From assembly GCA_902509675.1 (NCBI GenBank), contig CABWYN010000009.1, forward strand, positions 1 through 42,807: a DNA stretch of 42,807 nt, given 5' to 3'. This DNA comes from an uncultured Bacteroidota bacterium (GTDB taxonomy: Bacteria > Bacteroidota > Bacteroidia > Flavobacteriales > Flavobacteriaceae). Positions 8,282-26,190 of the stretch are shown in pieces (position 1 is the first letter of the stretch; each line of letters opens with the position of its first letter). Made by a program: the position numbers and the translations under genes. A model generated the notes under the pieces. The model was given only the letters and a program-made list of their open reading frames with translations. It did not search any database and was not told where the DNA came from.

Positions 8282-8351
8282 TCTGACAGTATTAACATTT
8301 TCTCCCATTTTATTAACATTATCTATGTTAATTATTAAAAAAATATAATAA

Positions 8352-8381
8352 TTGCTCGTAAACGGCTTTTAGTTACTTTAG
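8352..8381 (+). promoter_or_regulatory. dnaB promoter, TTG-N19-TACTTTAG
   Basis: A -33 TTG at 8352-8354 is separated by exactly 19 nt from TACTTTAG at 8374-8381, one mismatch from TAnnTTTG. The dnaB ATG begins 5 nt after the box, so the transcript would be leaderless or nearly so. Confidence 0.6.
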
Positions 8382-8386
8382 TATAT

Positions 8387-9898
8387 ATGAAACATTCAGC
8401 ATCTTTTCAAGGACTTAACATAGATAAAAATTCAATTATTAACTTAGAAAAAGGAAAGTTGCCCCCGCAAGCACTAGAACTTGAGGAGGTTGTTCTAGGG
8501 GCAATGATGATAGATAAAAAAGGAGTTGATGAGGTAATAGATATATTAAATCCTGAGGCTTTTTATAAAGAAGTCCATCAATATATTTTTGAGGCTATTT
8601 TTAAGTTGTTCCAAAAAAGTGAACCTATTGACCTTTTAACTGTGTCAAATCAGTTAAAAAAGGATGAAAATCATGAAAGAGTAGGAGGTGACTTTTATTT
8701 GATCTCATTAACTCAAAAAGTATCTTCATCTGCTCATATTGAATTCCATGCTAGAATAATACTTCAAAAATATATTCAAAGAAGTTTAATTAAAATTTCA
8801 AATGAAATAATCACCGATTCATATGATGAATCTAAAGATGTTTTTGACCTGTTAGATACTGCAGAATCTAAACTTTATGATGTAACTCAGGGGAATATAA
8901 AAAAATCATCAGAAACAGCTCAAAGTCTGGTAATACAAGCTAAAAATAAAATTGAAGCAGTTTCTAATAAAAAGGGGCTTAGTGGTGTGCCCTCTGGATT
9001 TAATAAGATTGATAAGTTGACTGCAGGTTGGCAAGAAAGTGATTTGGTAATTATAGCTGCTAGACCGGGTATGGGAAAAACAGCATTATCTTTATCCATG
9101 GCTAGTAATATAGCTGTAAATAATAAGATTCCTTTAGCCTTTTTCTCCCTAGAAATGTCATCAATTCAGTTGATAACAAGAATGATTTCATCTGAAACGG
9201 GATTAAATTCAGATAAACTTAGAACCGGTAAGCTGGAAAAGCATGAGTGGGAGCAGTTAAATGTAAGAGTAAAAAATCTTGAAAATGCCCCACTATATAT
9301 TGATGACACGCCCTCGCTATCCATATTTGACCTGAGAGCAAAAGCAAGAAGACTTGTTTCTCAAAATGGTGTGAAAATTATTGTTGTTGATTATCTTCAG
9401 TTGATGACTACAGGAGGTAATATTAAAGTCGGAAATAGAGAACAAGAAATTTCTACAATTTCAAGAAATTTAAAAGCATTAGCAAAAGAGCTGAATATTC
9501 CAGTAATTGCATTATCTCAACTTTCAAGAATGGTGGAAGGTAGAACCTCAAAGCGACCTTTACTCTCAGATTTAAGAGAGTCTGGTGCAATTGAGCAAGA
9601 TGCTGATATCGTTTCTTTTATTTATAGACCTGAATATTATAAAATAGATACTTGGGATGATAATGATAGATCATCAACAGAAGGAGAGGCGGAGTTTATT
9701 GTTTCTAAGCATAGGAATGGTGGATTAGAAAATATCAGATTGCGTTTTATCCCAACTCTTGGTAAATTTGAAGATATTGATCAATATGATTCTCCTTACG
9801 AGTTTCATTCAAAAATGAATGCTGCAGCTAATGATGATACATTCAAGACTGACTTGAATGCTGAAAATAAATTAGGTGATGATGATTTGCCTTTCTAA
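8387..9898 (+). CDS. dnaB: Replicative DNA helicase
   Basis: 503 residues. Hexameric 5'-3' helicase of the replication fork. The N-terminal DnaB domain (about 27-130, beginning LPPQALELEEVVLGAMM) is followed by a linker and the RecA-like C-terminal domain with Walker A RPGMGKTA (226-233), Walker B IIVVDYLQLM (about 330-340), LSQLSR and the arginine-containing SKHRNGG. No intein interrupts the Walker A or other frequent insertion sites. It ends 5 bp from the convergent rplT gene, with no space for a terminator between them. Confidence 0.97.
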   Translation: MKHSASFQGLNIDKNSIINLEKGKLPPQALELEEVVLGAMMIDKKGVDEVIDILNPEAFYKEVHQYIFEAIFKLFQKSEPIDLLTVSNQLKKDENHERVGGDFYLISLTQKVSSSAHIEFHARIILQKYIQRSLIKISNEIITDSYDESKDVFDLLDTAESKLYDVTQGNIKKSSETAQSLVIQAKNKIEAVSNKKGLSGVPSGFNKIDKLTAGWQESDLVIIAARPGMGKTALSLSMASNIAVNNKIPLAFFSLEMSSIQLITRMISSETGLNSDKLRTGKLEKHEWEQLNVRVKNLENAPLYIDDTPSLSIFDLRAKARRLVSQNGVKIIVVDYLQLMTTGGNIKVGNREQEISTISRNLKALAKELNIPVIALSQLSRMVEGRTSKRPLLSDLRESGAIEQDADIVSFIYRPEYYKIDTWDDNDRSSTEGEAEFIVSKHRNGGLENIRLRFIPTLGKFEDIDQYDSPYEFHSKMNAAANDDTFKTDLNAENKLGDDDLPF

Positions 9899-14059: not shown

Positions 14060-16270
14060 TTAAATATTATCAATAATATTATTTAGGGTTTGAGAAGGTC
14101 TCATAACAGAATTTGTAATTAGATCATCCGTTTTATAATATCCTTCAAGATTAACTTTAGCTCCCTGCTTTTCATTAATCTCGTCCATAATTATTTTTTC
14201 ATTTTCAGAAAGGCTTTTAAATATTGCAGAAAATTCTTTTTTCAGTAAAATATTTTCATTTTGATTAGATAAAAATTCTGACCAAAACAATGCTAAGTAA
14301 AAATGACTTCCTCGATTGTCAATTTCACCAACTTTTCTTGATGGAGATCTTTGATTTGAAAGTAGTTTTTCGATTGCATTTGTTAGACATGATGATAGGA
14401 TTTTTGAATTATCATTTTTGAGCCCAATATTTTCCAATGCAACAGATATTGCTAAAAATTCACCTAGTGAATCCCATCTTAGATGGTTTTCTTCCATTAG
14501 TTGTTGTACGTGTTTTGGCGCTGATCCACCGGCGCCTGTTTCAAATAATTTACCTCCATTCATTAAGGGGACTATTGATAACATTTTTGCGCTAGTTCCC
14601 AGTTCTAGAATCGGAAATAAATCGGTTAAATAATCTCTTAGTACATTTCCTGAAACTGAGATAACACTTTTTCCTTTTTTAATCATCTCTAAGGTGAAAA
14701 CTGTAGCTTCGTACGGCGGTAATATTTGTATATCTAACAGTGAAGTGTCAATTTTATTTAATTCGTTTTTTACTACTTTGATAAGCTGCTTATCGTGTGA
14801 CCTTTGTTCATCAAGCCAAAATACGGTAGGATATTTAGTTTCTTTTGCTCTGTTAAGAGCTAATTTTATCCAATCTAAAATGGCTTCATTTCTTACTATA
14901 CACATTCTCCAAATATCTCCCTTAGAAACATTGTGGGTAAATAGTGTTTTACCGTCCTTGGTTTCGACACAGACTTTCCCTGTCTCTTTTATCTCAAATG
15001 TTTTATCGTGAGATCCGTATTCCTCTGCTTTTTTAGCCATTAAACCTACATTTTGAACGGTTCCCATTGTAGAGGGGTCAAATTCGCCATTTTTCTTACA
15101 ATATTCAATTGTCGCTTGATATATAGAGGCATAGCTGCTGTCAGGAATTACAGCTTTTGTATCCTTTAAATCTCCTCTTTTATCCCACATTTTTCCAGAA
15201 CTTTTGATCATCGCTGGCATTGATGCGTCAATAATTACGTCACTGGGAATATGAAAATTGGAAATATTATTTTCAGAATTTACCATAGCTACATCTGGCC
15301 CAGATTTAAATTCATATTCAAGTTCTTCGGCTAATCTCTCTCTTGTATTTTTGTCTAGGTTATTTATTTTTTCATATAAATTGGATAATCCACTATTTAA
15401 ATCAATATTTAATTTATCTAATAATATCTTATTTTTCTTAAGGAACTTTTTAAAGAAAACCTTTAATACATGTCCAAAAATAATCGGGTCACTTACCTTC
15501 ATCATCGAGGCTTTCAGGTGTAAAGAGAAAAGTAAGTCTTTGGTTTTGCAGTCAGAAATTTCATTTTCAATAAATTCTTGAAGTTTACCAATATTCATAT
15601 AACTACAATCAATTATTGATTCTTTATGAATTGTGATATTTTCTTTCAGAATAGTTTTTTTATTATCTGAATCGTAATTATATATATTTAACAATTCATG
15701 TTTGTTACTAGTAAGAGATGTTTCATTATTTTTAAAATCACCTGATTGCATCGATGTAACATGGGTTTTTGATGCAGAAGTCCATACACCTAGCTTATGC
15801 GGATTTGTCTTTATGTAATTTTTTATGGCACTCGGTACTCGTCTATCTGAGTTTCCTTCTCTTAATACAGGGTTTACGGCGCTTCCTTTTATTTTGTCAT
15901 AGATAGATTGTATGATTAATTGATTTTCGTTTTCGGGTTTTTCTGGGTAATTAGGAATTTTAAAACCTTTTAGTTGTAATTCGTGAATAGCTTTTTTTAA
16001 CTGTGGAATTGAAGCACTTATATTAGGAAGTTTTATAATATTAGCCTTAGGATCCTTAACAAGTTTACTCAAGAACTCAAGATCGTTTTCATATTTTATT
16101 TTACTTCCAAGGTAGTCGTTGAAAGTGGCTAGAATTCTGGATGAGAGGGAGATGTCTCTGGTTTCAAATTTAACCCCTGATGATTTTGTAAAAGCCTGAA
16201 TAATAGGCAATAATGAAACAGTAGCAAGAGCTGGTGCTTCATCTGTTTTTGTATATATAATCTTCGACAT
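14060..16270 (-). CDS. NADP-dependent isocitrate dehydrogenase, monomeric type
   Basis: 736 residues, the length of the monomeric class rather than the ~400-residue homodimeric Icd. Converts isocitrate to 2-oxoglutarate in the TCA cycle. The N-terminus IIYTKTDEAPALATVSLLPI and the segment RGSHFYLALFWSEFL near the C-terminus are typical. SASIPQLKKAIHELQLKGFKIP and NPVLREGNSDRR include substrate-binding residues of this family. It has its own predicted promoter (TATATTTG, 16297-16304) just after the terminator of the upstream RNA locus. murQ starts immediately downstream and is probably cotranscribed. Confidence 0.96.
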   Translation of the reverse strand: MSKIIYTKTDEAPALATVSLLPIIQAFTKSSGVKFETRDISLSSRILATFNDYLGSKIKYENDLEFLSKLVKDPKANIIKLPNISASIPQLKKAIHELQLKGFKIPNYPEKPENENQLIIQSIYDKIKGSAVNPVLREGNSDRRVPSAIKNYIKTNPHKLGVWTSASKTHVTSMQSGDFKNNETSLTSNKHELLNIYNYDSDNKKTILKENITIHKESIIDCSYMNIGKLQEFIENEISDCKTKDLLFSLHLKASMMKVSDPIIFGHVLKVFFKKFLKKNKILLDKLNIDLNSGLSNLYEKINNLDKNTRERLAEELEYEFKSGPDVAMVNSENNISNFHIPSDVIIDASMPAMIKSSGKMWDKRGDLKDTKAVIPDSSYASIYQATIEYCKKNGEFDPSTMGTVQNVGLMAKKAEEYGSHDKTFEIKETGKVCVETKDGKTLFTHNVSKGDIWRMCIVRNEAILDWIKLALNRAKETKYPTVFWLDEQRSHDKQLIKVVKNELNKIDTSLLDIQILPPYEATVFTLEMIKKGKSVISVSGNVLRDYLTDLFPILELGTSAKMLSIVPLMNGGKLFETGAGGSAPKHVQQLMEENHLRWDSLGEFLAISVALENIGLKNDNSKILSSCLTNAIEKLLSNQRSPSRKVGEIDNRGSHFYLALFWSEFLSNQNENILLKKEFSAIFKSLSENEKIIMDEINEKQGAKVNLEGYYKTDDLITNSVMRPSQTLNNIIDNI

Positions 16271-16296: not shown

Positions 16297-16304
16297 CAAA
16301 TATA
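16297..16304 (-). promoter_or_regulatory. Bacteroidota -7 box (TATATTTG) for idh
   Basis: On the minus strand TATATTTG matches TAnnTTTG exactly and lies 26 nt before the idh ATG. A clear -33 element is not visible. It sits between the terminator of the ncRNA locus and idh, so idh likely has separate transcription. Confidence 0.45.
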
Positions 16305-16347
16305 GAAAATGGGAATAAAATAAAAGAATAAACCGAGAATAGTTATT

Positions 16348-16393
16348 AAAAAAGGAAAGCCGTACTTATGTATTGCTACACGGTACGGCTTTC
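16348..16393 (-). terminator. Rho-independent terminator of the ncRNA locus
   Basis: An 11-bp perfect stem, GAAAGCCGTAC (RNA side 16393-16383) with GTACGGCTTTC (16365-16355), encloses a shorter upper stem GTGTA/TACAT capped by a GCAA tetraloop. It is followed on the minus strand by CC and six T. It is the strongest terminator in the window and fixes the direction of transcription as minus. Confidence 0.85.
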
Positions 16394-16850
16394 TGAATAT
16401 CGAATATGTTTGCCTTCGTTTCCGAATTGCTTAACTCTAGGAGCTTAGCTGGTAAACATCTTCGCTATTATCGGAGTCGTATTGTTACTCATTTCCGAAG
16501 AAATTTTCCCTTTTGACTCCTAATTACTTATTATTCTGACATTGCTTACGCTTTGACAGCACGTTTCTGAGTTACTCAATTCACCCTTACTTTGTGATTC
16601 TCTTCTTGAGCTAGGCTCAATCAGACTCCTTCCAGACTAGGTCTTTGGGAGAGAGAGTCTTTTACTCTAAAATTGTGCAGGCACACATTTTAAAATTTAG
16701 TTTCTCTCTGCTTTCGAATTTTAGGTTGCCCTGAAATTCTATAAGTAATCTATTTTAAAGAACATTCTTTGAATTTGTAATCACTTTAAAGTGTTTGTTG
16801 ATCCTTTTGGGATCCACTACAAACAAATCCTGACACTAATTTAGGATTAA
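16348..16850 (-). ncRNA. Large structured non-coding RNA candidate, family not recognised
   Basis: About 500 nt between rplS and idh with no ORF but dense secondary structure. On the minus strand, from 5' to 3': hairpin 16793-16824 (GTTTGT and GGATC stems); hairpin 16716-16739 with AGG/CCT around a GCAA loop; a long imperfect hairpin 16648-16712 including CTAAATTTT...AATTTTAG and GAGAG/CTCTC; hairpin 16606-16620 (TTGAG/CTCAA); a GGAGTC/GACTCC stem (16515-16520 with 16473-16478) holding AATTTC-TTCG-GAAAT (16491-16504), a cUUCGg tetraloop; and a 10-bp stem CGAA-ATGTTT/AAACAT-TTCG (16401-16411 with 16454-16464). It ends in a strong terminator. It lacks the tRNA-like GGTTCRA end and Ala tag of tmRNA and the AGGAAAGTC core of RNase P. 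The 5' end is uncertain. Confidence 0.7.
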
Positions 16851-16933
16851 TGTTTAGTTTTCCAATAAATTTAAAATAAAAGATATTAACCTGTTGTAAA
16901 CTAGAGATATTAACAATTGTTAAAAACTCTTAT

Positions 16934-17284
16934 TTAACTTCTCTTTTCTTTAATTTTTGCCTTTTTACCGGTAAGGTTTCTGAAATAAAATATTCTGGCT
17001 CTTCTTACTTTTCCTCTTTTATTTACCTCTATTTTTTGAAGTGAGGGTGAATTGATTGGGAATATTCTTTCAACTCCGATTGAACCTGACATTTTTCTGA
17101 TTGTAAAAGTCTCTGTAGATCCAGAGCCTCTTCTTTGTAGAACAACACCTTTAAAAAACTGTGTTCTCTTTTTATCACCTTCCTTAATTTCGTAATAAAC
17201 AGTTATCGTATCTCCTGCACTGAAAGTAGGAAGTTCATTATTTTGTAGTAATTGATCTTCTACAAACTTAACTAGTGAGCTCAT
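16934..17284 (-). CDS. rplS: 50S ribosomal protein L19
   Basis: 116 residues. FSAGDTITVYYEIKEGDKKR and QFFKGVVLQRRGSGSTETFT with FPINSPSLQKIEV are the L19 signature, and the C-terminus RRARIFYFRNLTGKKAKIKE is standard. Preceded by a predicted promoter and about 66-nt leader, so it is not simply read through from trmD. The ncRNA locus follows on the same strand, 84 bp or more downstream. Confidence 0.98.
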   Translation of the reverse strand: MSSLVKFVEDQLLQNNELPTFSAGDTITVYYEIKEGDKKRTQFFKGVVLQRRGSGSTETFTIRKMSGSIGVERIFPINSPSLQKIEVNKRGKVRRARIFYFRNLTGKKAKIKEKRS

Positions 17285-17355
17285 TTTAATTTTTTTATGA
17301 TTTAGTTCTAGCCAACGTTAGTTTCTTTAACTAAGAGGTTGAACAGAAACGCGTG

Positions 17356-22659: not shown

Positions 22660-24087
22660 TTATACGGAAAGTTTTTTTCCAAGATCTTCAACAAACTTTC
22701 TAAATTGTTTATCTGTTGAGGATAGGTTGTCTACTGTTTTACATGCATGAAGAACTGTAGCGTGATCTCTTTTACCGATTTGAGATCCTATACTAGCTAA
22801 TGATGCTTTGGTGTATTTTTTTGCAAAGAACATTGCTAGTTGTCTAGCCTGCACAATGTGTCTTTTTCTTGTTTTAGATTGTAGGGTAGGGATGTCCATT
22901 TGGAAATAATCTGAAACAATCTTTTGAATATAATCTATTGAAACTTCGCGTTTGGTATTCTTGACAAATTTTTCAATAATTTCTTTAGCCAAAGAAATAT
23001 TAATTTCTTTTCTGTTAAATGATGCTTGGGCAATAAGTGAAATTATTGCTCCTTCTAATTCACGAACATTACTTTTAATGTTTTTGGCAACATAATGAAC
23101 AACATCTTCATTCATTTCAATTCCGTCACGGTATAGTTTATTTTTCAGAATAGATACACGTGTTTCAAAATCAGGTTTTTGAAGTTCAGCAGAAAGACCC
23201 CATTTAAATCTAGATAACAATCTAAGTTCAATATCCTGCATGTCAACAGGAGGCTTATCGCTTGTTAGAACAACCTGCTTACCATTTTGATGCAGGTGGT
23301 TAAATATGTGGAAAAATACATCCTGAGTTCCAGGTTTCCCAGAAAAAAACTGAATATCATCAATGATTAAGACATCAATAATCTGGTAGAAATATATAAA
23401 ATCATTTCTGTTATTCTTTTTTACAGCTTCTATGTATTGCTGAGTAAATTTTTCAGCTGTTGTGTAAAGGACTGTTTTTTCAGGATATCTTTTTTTGATA
23501 TCAATTCCTATAGCATTAGCTAAATGAGTCTTTCCTAATCCAACACCTCCAAAAATTAAGAATGGATTAAAGGAGGTTCCTCCTGGCTTGTTAGCTACAG
23601 CGATACCTGCATTTCTAGCAAGTCTATTAGAGTCACCTTCTAGAAAATTTTCAAAAGTATAATTTGGATTTAGCTGAGATTCAACTTTAACGTTTTTAAT
23701 TCCTGGAATAATAAATGGATTTTTTAATTCCGGAACAGATCTATTAATCGGAGTGGTAGCATTTTGAGTTGTTATTGCTGAACTATTTGAGCTAGGAATT
23801 TTTTCCGTAAAGGCTTGAGAATTTCCAAAAGTGTTTTCCATTTTAATAATGTAAACCAGCTTAGCATCATCTCCCAAAGTTTTTTGCAATGCAACTTTTA
23901 AGATCTTAACATAGTGTTCCTCTAACCATTCATAGAAAAACTTACTAGGGACTTCCACACTTAAAACTTTACCTGCTAATTTTACTGCTTTTATTGGCTC
24001 AAACCAAGTCTTAAAAGCTTGTGGTTGAATATTGTCTTTTATAAACTTAAGACAGTCAGACCACACAGAATTAGCATTTATATTCAT
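22660..24087 (-). CDS. dnaA: Chromosomal replication initiator protein DnaA
   Basis: 475 residues with all four domains: domain I (about 1-90), a linker rich in Ser/Thr/Asn (about 95-150), the AAA+ domain III with Walker A GVGLGKTH (about 185) and Walker B VLIIDDIQFF (about 245), and domain IV with the DnaA-box-binding signature GKRDHATVLHACKTVDNL. The upstream 198 bp is AT-rich but shows no consensus DnaA boxes. The downstream methyltransferase gene overlaps or abuts it, so it is probably expressed from the same mRNA. Confidence 0.98.
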   Translation of the reverse strand: MNINANSVWSDCLKFIKDNIQPQAFKTWFEPIKAVKLAGKVLSVEVPSKFFYEWLEEHYVKILKVALQKTLGDDAKLVYIIKMENTFGNSQAFTEKIPSSNSSAITTQNATTPINRSVPELKNPFIIPGIKNVKVESQLNPNYTFENFLEGDSNRLARNAGIAVANKPGGTSFNPFLIFGGVGLGKTHLANAIGIDIKKRYPEKTVLYTTAEKFTQQYIEAVKKNNRNDFIYFYQIIDVLIIDDIQFFSGKPGTQDVFFHIFNHLHQNGKQVVLTSDKPPVDMQDIELRLLSRFKWGLSAELQKPDFETRVSILKNKLYRDGIEMNEDVVHYVAKNIKSNVRELEGAIISLIAQASFNRKEINISLAKEIIEKFVKNTKREVSIDYIQKIVSDYFQMDIPTLQSKTRKRHIVQARQLAMFFAKKYTKASLASIGSQIGKRDHATVLHACKTVDNLSSTDKQFRKFVEDLGKKLSV

Positions 24088-24690: not shown

Positions 24691-25676
24691 TATACAAGTT
24701 CATTATTACCAATTGTTATATTTTTAATAGCCTTATATTTTATTATAGGACTTTTAATTCCATCAACTAATTTTTCTTGAGTTTTAAAAATCCTCATCTC
24801 ATCCCATGTGTTACTGTCTAAAAAATTTGATAATGTTTTTGTTCCACCTTCAATGATGATTGAAACAATTTTATCATCATAAAATTTATCACAAATTTGT
24901 CTTGTAACATTCTTTTCAAAATCAATTTCTTCGCTATTAAGTATAGTAACCTTTGAGTCTTGATTAAAAATTTGGTAATCTTTTTCAAAGCCTTTTTTTG
25001 ACAATATATATATGTCACAATTTTTTCCTTCCCAATCTCTAGTTGTTAATCTGGGATTATCTTCACGAATTGTTTTAGCTCCTACTAAAATAGCCTGCTC
25101 TTCACTTCTCCATTTGTGAACTAATTGTCTAGATTTTGTATTAGAAATCCAATATGGCTCATCAATATTTTTTTGTTTTGGAGCAATGAATCCGTCAGCG
25201 GTTTCAGCCCACTTGAGAATTATGTATGGTCTTTTGTTTAAAATATAGCACAGGAATCTTTTATGATGTTCAATACACTCATTTTTTAAAATTCCTGAAA
25301 TTACTTCAATTCCATTTTCTTTTAGTTTTTTAATTCCTTGTCCACAAACTAGTGGGTTAGGATCCTTAATTCCAATTACCACTTTTTTAATACCATTAGA
25401 AATAATTTTATCTACACATGGAGGCGTCTTACCATGGTGACAACAAGGCTCTAATGTTACATAGATTGTTGAATCTTTTATTAGTGATTTATTTTTTACT
25501 GAGTTAATTGCATTAACTTCTGCATGGTTTCCTCCGGCTATGGAAGTGAAACCTTCACCGATTATTTTATCATCAACTACTAGGCAACACCCAACGCTTG
25601 GATTTGGATATGTATTTCCTATCCCTAATTTACCAAGCTCAATACATCTACTAATATATTTTTCGTGTATATTCAC
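24654..25676 (-). CDS. ribD: Bifunctional riboflavin biosynthesis deaminase/reductase
   Basis: 340 residues, two domains. The N-terminal deaminase (about 1-145) has the zinc site: His-Ala-Glu in GNHAEVNA, and LEPCCHHGKTPPC. The C-terminal reductase (about 150-340) has RPYIILKWAETADGFIA, LVGAKTIREDNPRLTTR and IIEGGTKTLSNFL. It carries out steps two and three of riboflavin synthesis. The start is GTG (25676) by position relative to the -7 box and to the conserved first helix; no ATG lies nearby in frame. The gene is divergent from the GNAT gene with only 19 bp between start codons. Confidence 0.93.
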   Translation of the reverse strand: MNIHEKYISRCIELGKLGIGNTYPNPSVGCCLVVDDKIIGEGFTSIAGGNHAEVNAINSVKNKSLIKDSTIYVTLEPCCHHGKTPPCVDKIISNGIKKVVIGIKDPNPLVCGQGIKKLKENGIEVISGILKNECIEHHKRFLCYILNKRPYIILKWAETADGFIAPKQKNIDEPYWISNTKSRQLVHKWRSEEQAILVGAKTIREDNPRLTTRDWEGKNCDIYILSKKGFEKDYQIFNQDSKVTILNSEEIDFEKNVTRQICDKFYDDKIVSIIIEGGTKTLSNFLDSNTWDEMRIFKTQEKLVDGIKSPIIKYKAIKNITIGNNELVYYKNKGVTFSNI

Positions 25677-25680
25677 AATA

Positions 25681-25688
25681 CAAAAATA
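25681..25688 (-). promoter_or_regulatory. Bacteroidota -7 box (TATTTTTG) for ribD
   Basis: On the minus strand TATTTTTG ends 4 nt before the ribD GTG start, an exact TAnnTTTG match, so ribD mRNA should be leaderless. Its -33 region would lie within the start of the divergent GNAT gene. Confidence 0.5.
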
Positions 25689-25695
25689 CTATAAA

Positions 25696-26190
25696 ATGCT
25701 TCAATATAATGGATATAATATTAGGGTTATTGAGAAGAAAGATAACGAGCAAGTTTGTAACGTTATTAAGGGAGTGTTTTATGAGTTAGGATTACCGTTA
25801 GTAGGAACAGCATATGCCGACAAAGACACACTAAGTATGTATGAGGCGTACCAAGATTCTAAATCAATATATTATGTAGTTGAAAAGGAGGGAGGTATTT
25901 TTGGAGGCTGTGGAATTAAGCAGCTTAGTGGTACTCATGAGAATGTTTGTGAGTTGCAAAAATTTTATTTTCATAAATCTTTAAGGGGAAAGGGGCTAGG
26001 TAAATATCTTTTGAAATTATGTCTAGATTTTGCTGTCAAGGTTAAGTATGATCTATGCTATCTCGAATCAACTTCAGCATTAAAAACATCACACCATTTA
26101 TATAAAATTTTTGGTTTTGAAAATTTAGAAGAGCCAATGGGTAATACCAGTCACCACAATTGTGATGTACATATGACAAAGAAACTATAA
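25696..26190 (+). CDS. GNAT family N-acetyltransferase
   Basis: 164 residues from the ATG at 25696. An upstream in-frame ATG (25540) lies inside ribD and would add 52 residues that read as antisense of ribD, so it is rejected. The acetyl-CoA loop LRGKGLGKYLLKL (about 97-109) and the final strand KIFGFENL are GNAT features; the N-terminal RVIEKKDNEQVCNVIKGVF begins the fold. Its stop TAA shares an A with the prmC ATG (TAATG), so it is translationally coupled to prmC. Substrate unknown. Confidence 0.88.
   Translation: MLQYNGYNIRVIEKKDNEQVCNVIKGVFYELGLPLVGTAYADKDTLSMYEAYQDSKSIYYVVEKEGGIFGGCGIKQLSGTHENVCELQKFYFHKSLRGKGLGKYLLKLCLDFAVKVKYDLCYLESTSALKTSHHLYKIFGFENLEEPMGNTSHHNCDVHMTKKL

Follow-up and report, generated by a model that had tools for sequence, protein, structure and literature searches.

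The longest gap within the window (the whole 42,807-nt stretch of DNA analyzed here) measures 663 bp and lies between two minus-strand genes, rplS (L19) and idh (isocitrate dehydrogenase), both of which keep the names given in a preliminary description of this DNA. This gap contains a predicted gene for a structured non-coding RNA, preceded by operator-like and promoter-like sequences and followed by a second promoter-like box. Along the minus strand, the features are as follows.

16934..17284, minus strand: rplS, upstream neighbor
16882..16923, minus strand: upstream element, by its sequence a likely operator, consisting of the palindrome TTAACAATTGTTAA (16910-16923) and then the half-sites GTTTACAAC and GTTAATATC
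16836..16865, minus strand: promoter-like pair, assigned by sequence, with TTG (16863-16865), a 19-nt spacer and TAAATTAG (16836-16843)
16345..16832, minus strand: structured non-coding RNA gene, predicted from fold energy, covariation and a model match
16297..16304, minus strand: −7-like box TATATTTG, a putative idh promoter downstream of the RNA terminator
14060..16270, minus strand: idh, downstream neighbor

The preliminary description had placed a structured RNA at 16348-16850, an interval that departs from the predicted gene by about 20 nt at most and does not take in the upstream element, which reaches to 16923. It had also called this the only gene-free stretch longer than 300 bp. No longer gap exists in the window, but this one may not be the sole stretch of that kind: our gap list, drawn from ORFs of at least 110 aa, holds a second gap of 477 bp (25689-26165) only because the plus-strand ORF at 25465-26190 was taken as spurious.

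The putative 5′ end of the RNA, at about position 16832 (plus or minus several nt), was set from the promoter-like pair and falls about 4 nt past the −7 box, and the putative 3′ end lies in the U-tract, as placed by the terminator. The minus strand of 16344-16832 folds at −131.5 kcal/mol compared to a mean of −96.6 for dinucleotide shuffles, none of which folded as well (0/100; z −6.49). A wider interval, 16340-16900, is again ahead of all 100 shuffles (z −5.66), and the plus strand of the locus likewise folds well (z −4.91). The RNA contains no ORF of at least 40 aa, and the longest stop-free frame in the loci of 71 relatives averages 69 codons compared to 62 in shuffles. On these measures, the reading frames of the locus look non-coding.

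The predicted RNA comprises the following parts.

16757..16770, minus strand: core hairpin AAAG-AAUGUU-CUUU, from a motif search of 71 loci, with a six-letter loop that is self-complementary when G-U is allowed
16741..16750, minus strand: 5′ strand of the P1 helix, GAUUACUUAU, partner 16522-16531 (helix 3; 99.4% of cells paired)
16672..16686, minus strand: GUGUGCCUGCACAAU within the P1 domain, identical in 16/16 loci of the window's genus
16522..16531, minus strand: 3′ strand of the P1 helix, AUAAGUAAUU, partner 16741-16750 (99.4% of cells paired)
16473..16520, minus strand: P2 domain, with outer stem GGAGUC/GACUCC and inner hairpin AUUUC-UUCG-GAAAU (genus alignment and stem check)
16397..16471, minus strand: P3 domain, a long stem of 16454-16471 with 16397-16411 plus inner hairpins (helix 13; 96.8% of cells paired)
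16348..16393, minus strand: predicted intrinsic terminator hairpin and U-tract (stem check; helix 16 of the genus alignment)

The minus-strand stems described earlier are present where they had been seen. In the long-range stem of 16401-16411 with 16454-16464, 10 of 11 positions pair; the two GCAA loops lie at about 16726-16729 and 16373-16376; and the terminal hairpin (16355-16393) is followed by a U-tract (16348-16353). One assignment needed revision. The GGAGUC/GACUCC helix and the UUCG tetraloop both exist, but the former (16515-16520 with 16473-16478) is an outer helix and not the stem of the tetraloop, whose own hairpin (16491-16504) sits inside it. The sequences of P1 differ by group, being AATTACTTAC/GTAAGTAATT in most of the window's genus and AATTGTTTTTT/GAAAAACAATT in many other genera; the underlying helix listing covers 68/71 loci, and the best helix in some of them is not P1.

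By DNA search, the RNA locus occurs in 16 of the 21 genomes of the window's genus, the window's own included, all 21 being at most 86% complete. Twelve other full-length matches are 73-92% identical to the window, and G013, G010 and G008 match piecewise at 69-79%. For other genera, we fetched the DNA downstream of rplS and extracted 104 regions, 88 of which have idh downstream. The rplS-idh gap is 560-930 nt in 71 of these 88, longer in 10 and only 177-293 nt in 7, and the covariance model introduced below found no match in the 7 short-gap regions on either strand at E < 0.05. Many regions share one order of parts: the rplS terminator, the palindromic element, the promoter-like pair, the AACGTTCTTTA core, a variable middle and the terminator AAAGCCATRTCA...TGATATGGCTTTT. 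Our motif and alignment set holds 71 of the 104 regions; the 33 dropped were without the core or terminator pattern, several of them being RNA-positive by the model. Across genera, the sequence has strongly diverged while the architecture is kept, namely the operator, promoter-like pair, (A)ACGUU hairpin, P1-closed domain, two hairpin domains and terminator.

We built a covariance model, R1 (204 positions), solely from the 3′ half of the RNA in 30 genera, with the window's genus left out. R1 matches 10 of the 11 window-genus loci tested (of 16) at the homologous place and strand, with E-values of 2e-5 to 0.0071 and L003 missed; the match to the window covers 16350-16514 on the minus strand (23.8 bits, E about 0.007). 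These matches are weak and owe part of their score to the near-palindromic terminator. The match in L015 spans just 70 nt, and several loci of the genus also give weaker matches on the opposite strand. At the family level, R1 finds 94 of 149 genomes (148 sampled genera, one genome per genus) and 83 of the 124 of good quality, and in 87 of the 94 the match follows rplS in the same orientation at a distance of no more than 2.5 kb. The 55 genomes missed under the stricter filters of this search include the window's own. As the gene is found in 94 of 149 genomes despite strong sequence divergence, selection on the shape of the RNA is suggested.

In a broader sampling of the class, R1 matches 2 of 198 genomes, of which one belongs to the family, and a genome from a different family of this class carries weak R1 matches at G523:C1:1024479 and 380427 (E about 8e-4 and 9e-4). 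Of 296 genomes from the order, 13 have the terminator pattern, including 12 from Flavobacteriaceae, and the pattern has no match in viral contigs. A scan of named genomes with this pattern returned at least 80 records; among the matches listed are Winogradskyella, Maribacter, Zobellia, Cellulophaga, Polaribacter, Tenacibaculum, Aquimarina, Kordia and others, together with 9 from clearly other groups and 3 carrying a phylum or class name only.

Covariation in homologous loci, for which the preliminary description had suggested R-scape, was measured with a purpose-written script and RNAalifold against six tree-simulated null alignments, and it was found. The simulation covered 14 genus rows and 30 group-B rows (30 genera); 11 group-C rows were folded only, and the divergent genus loci L015 and L016 belong to the 16-row genus alignment A2, outside the simulation. 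In the 30-genus set, 17 predicted pairs covary compared to 0 in the six nulls, and the RNAalifold score is −143.8 compared to −59.4 to −74.7. The genus set (14 rows) scores −162.3 compared to −124.1 to −143.5 and gives a modest 2 covarying pairs compared to 0. In a test of all column pairs no pair passes, and 16-17 pass only when the test is restricted to predicted pairs, so the covariation backs the predicted structure as a set. Both-side changes number 101 cells compared to 30.8 after shuffling in the genus (16 rows, 95.0% of cells paired) and 134 compared to 37.5 in the 3′ part across 30 genera (96.7% of cells paired). Shifting the structures by 1-3 columns drops pairing to 36-44%.

The strand running from rplS to idh out-folds its complement in the two broader sets (−143.8 compared to −111.3 and −101.9 compared to −75.2), and the two strands are about equal in the genus set (−162.3 compared to −162.8). 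Cells with G-U exceed those with A-C by 135 to 19 and 134 to 11, a count that leans to the strand used for structure prediction. Taken together, these sequence comparisons support selection on RNA structure at the idh-rplS locus. Synteny, covariation and the covariance model alike favor the earlier reading of a selected, structured RNA that ends in a terminator of its own, its length being put here at about 490 nt.

At the window locus, no Rfam 15 family reaches its gathering cut-off, and relaxed thresholds give only matches far below it. Over the window and 14 relatives' loci, no over-cut-off match falls inside the RNA; those to tRNA, L19-Flavobacteria and Flavo-1 all lie outside it. Models of the GOLLD, ROOL and OLE families have no match in the window, and SRP RNA does not reach its cut-off at the RNA locus, the one place where it was sought. 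The idh-rplS RNA matches none of the known RNA families tested. The preliminary description had left open a GOLLD/ROOL/IMES-type RNA or a new one; Rfam lends membership in such a family no support, and the second option is the one that is supported.

Size and structure alone might suggest a housekeeping RNA (RNase P, tmRNA or 6S) in diverged form, a reading to which we give next to no credence: all three have genes elsewhere in relatives, and none of the matches listed is at the RNA locus. RNase P RNA (RF00010) is found in 33 of 38 relatives, in the window's genome at G000:C4:7928-8225; tmRNA (RF00023) exceeds its cut-off in 29 of 38; and 6S-Flavo (RF01685) does so in 24 of 38, in the window's genome at G000:C4:25660-25766. 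The window's own genome (57% complete) holds no tmRNA over the cut-off, and ARAGORN found none in the window. With no match at the locus and genes of their own elsewhere, these identities are refuted, as the preliminary description had anticipated for tmRNA and RNase P.

Upstream of the RNA, the palindromic element recurs in many relatives. Of 149 genomes, 33 have the exact sequence TTATKAACAAWTGTTMATAA, always at a single place, which in 31 of the 33 is no more than 610 bp away from rplS or the RNA. Because it occupies a single place per genome, nearly always at rplS or the RNA, we read TTATKAACAAWTGTTMATAA as a dedicated site and not a common box. The only two matches away from this locus, G103:C1:3536697 and G152:C23:279196, might be further targets of the regulator that acts here. 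Two TGTTAATA repeats at 8290-8318 of the window, just upstream of a dnaB-like ORF (8339-9898), resemble the half-sites upstream of the RNA; within the window, TGTTAATA is not enriched.

Promoters of Bacteroidetes take the form TTG...TAnnTTTG. In AT-rich DNA and with no chance control, TTG-N17-23-TAnnTT[TA][GA] precedes the core in 52 of 71 loci. The 120 nt ahead of idh were compared across 81 loci, of which 60 have TAnnTTTG there and 79 have TAnnTT[TC]G, also with no chance control.

The repeats upstream of the RNA resemble what we take to be the DnaA-box consensus, and the DNA element could in principle be a chromosome origin, with DnaA boxes beside an unwinding region and no RNA gene. Two ORFs named by eye, dnaA-like (22660-24087) and the dnaB-like one, lie in the window, and rplS is near coordinate 1 of several one-contig genomes. 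Against this, pairs at the locus are kept through G-U, which is a signature of RNA, and the plus strand of the window has the look of a leading strand to either side of the locus, with no strand switch. Plain GC skew is confounded by gene direction. In the closed genome G110, GC3 skew taken separately for the genes of each strand places the origin at about 1.05-1.3 Mb and the locus lies at 2.34 Mb, a separation of about 1.1 Mb on which we reject the oriC reading; the skew was taken from 20 sampled stretches, of which those at 0.55, 2.6 and 2.75 Mb do not fit cleanly. An origin at this locus is accordingly very improbable.

The position of idh raises the alternative that the RNA is a cis-acting leader, in which a long attenuator, its terminator switched by a metabolite or protein, would allow regulated read-through into idh besides the gene's own promoter. 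The prevalence of idh downstream of rplS (88/104 regions) speaks for such a role. In addition, idh is the next gene downstream of all seven RNAs located on contigs or places other than rplS, so RNA and idh may be linked. An upstream ORF of one kind is common to five of these seven, which may therefore go back to a single event. The terminator, moreover, is kept nearly letter for letter in 30 other genera, with 9 of 13 hairpin pairs invariant, which exceeds what a plain terminator needs.

The arrangement of genes at other loci weighs on the opposite side. In L070 and L087 a convergent gene comes directly after the RNA, which therefore is no leader there, and the RNA does not always precede a co-directional target gene. 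At nine loci (L028, L033, L042, L053, L056, L057, L061, L078 and L094), another ORF separates the RNA from idh; it has about 190-208 codons and the look of a pentapeptide repeat (AEYDNCTFINCNF...). L083, a false terminator match, is excluded from these counts. In most loci idh also has a promoter-like box of its own, and by these sequence criteria the RNA and idh look like neighbors with separate signals. A leader role is possible where the RNA adjoins idh and cannot be general; as an account of the RNA, we find it quite unlikely.

We consider it probable that the structured non-coding RNA, about 490 nt long, has a stand-alone gene, which many Flavobacteriaceae carry and some genera lack, and whose product is a putative trans-acting, protein-binding or self-associating scaffold. 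In favor of such a gene, all seven RNAs away from rplS are accompanied by the terminator and six by the operator (the seventh, L289, lies near a contig end), besides the covarying helices, the non-coding frames, the separate promoter-like box of idh and the convergent gene in two genera described above. In the proposed mechanism, a transcription factor would bind the palindrome and half-sites and set transcription of the RNA; the transcript would fold into a P1-closed multibranch domain and two hairpin domains; and it would then act in trans. The last step, that it may serve as a scaffold for protein or for itself and not by pairing with mRNAs, is the weakest. Two observations make us lean to a scaffold: the structure persists although most loops have drifted in sequence, and (A)ACGUU, which of all loops is the most conserved between groups, can pair with itself. 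Among the 71 loci, the core loop reads AACGTT in 41, GACGTT in 11, AATGTT in 6 and AGCGTT in 2, with 3 unmatched by the search; counting G-U, it is self-complementary in 60 of the 68 matched.

Such a loop could form a symmetric kissing dimer. Tentatively, the RNA may represent a new large-RNA class of Flavobacteriaceae that forms a dimer or larger complex through the (A)ACGUU loop, and is switched by one dedicated transcription-factor site found about once per genome. This combination is doubtful as a whole, and a single loop underlies its scaffold or dimer step. The odds of a dimer are slightly lowered because the loop narrows to four letters in the minimum-energy fold of the window and the same stretch pairs elsewhere in the consensus structure of the window's genus.

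Many bacterial regulatory RNAs pair with mRNAs through exposed loops, and a trans-acting regulator of this kind is an alternative that we judge unlikely. It would use a loop such as that of the UACAUU hairpin kept in 30 genera, where GGUCAAUACAUUUUGAAA is almost invariant (A3 columns 30-48) and is, from its sequence, a possible binding or pairing site. In the window's genus, however, GGUCAAUACAUUUUGAAA is not seen at the matching place, where a different hairpin stands, and the usual mRNA-pairing RNAs are much smaller than one of about 490 nt.

Flavobacteriaceae play a major part in the breakdown of marine algal matter, and to our knowledge few of their RNAs are known. With the alignment, the model and a single operator-like site at hand, the regulator, partner and phenotype of the putative scaffold RNA become testable in the culturable Zobellia, Maribacter and Winogradskyella.

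Full-text literature searches returned no published account of the idh-rplS RNA, whether as an Rfp sRNA or a motif, an absence that holds for those searches and for Rfam. The Rfp1-89 sRNAs named in a Flavobacterium psychrophilum map (PMC9723704) are likewise structured RNAs of the same family, compared here by description. None of the g146 genomes listed in the order scan, a group that we guess to be Flavobacterium, matches the terminator pattern, and the rplS-idh gap of G169, a g146 genome, is only 293 bp.

Three Rfam families share the taxonomic or genomic setting. 6S-Flavo is also a flavobacterial RNA gene but has 108 positions and, in the window's genome, the separate location given above. 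Flavo-1 (RF01705) is a small Bacteroidetes RNA family of 76 positions whose sole match in the loci, at L044:1990-2056 (48.2 bits, over the cut-off), is upstream of rplS, just upstream of the L19 leader. The L19-Flavobacteria leader (RF03130) has the same rplS neighborhood, but it measures 29 positions and lies upstream of rplS. We rejected an L19 decoy, in which the RNA would carry this leader's motif, as the leader consensus is not seen in the RNA. Upstream of rplS in the window (17313-17341, minus strand), CAACCTCTTAGTTAAAGAAACTAACGTTG looks like a diverged L19-Flavobacteria leader; Rfam reports the leader in relatives and not here.

Structured RNA elements beside isocitrate dehydrogenase genes are known as the icd and icd-II motifs (PMC8632094; icd also in PMC2864571, Table 1). 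In the cited sections, they are proteobacterial leader candidates with a three-stem junction, icd-II having a ribosome site in P1 (PMC8632094). Compared to the motifs as described there, the idh-rplS RNA is about 490 nt long, comes from Flavobacteriaceae and has a terminator before idh's own promoter-like box.

A further likeness is to GOLLD, ROOL and OLE, families in Rfam that, according to the cited sections of PMC12286853, form homo-oligomers held partly by kissing loops, symmetric ones being reported for OLE and GOLLD. The idh-rplS RNA, too, is a large structured bacterial RNA; it differs from those described there in its length of about 490 nt, its occurrence so far in one bacterial family and the absence of its terminator pattern from viral contigs, and oligomer formation is in its case a loop-based hint. 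Its novelty is limited to family membership, the large structured RNA being already known as a broad idea.
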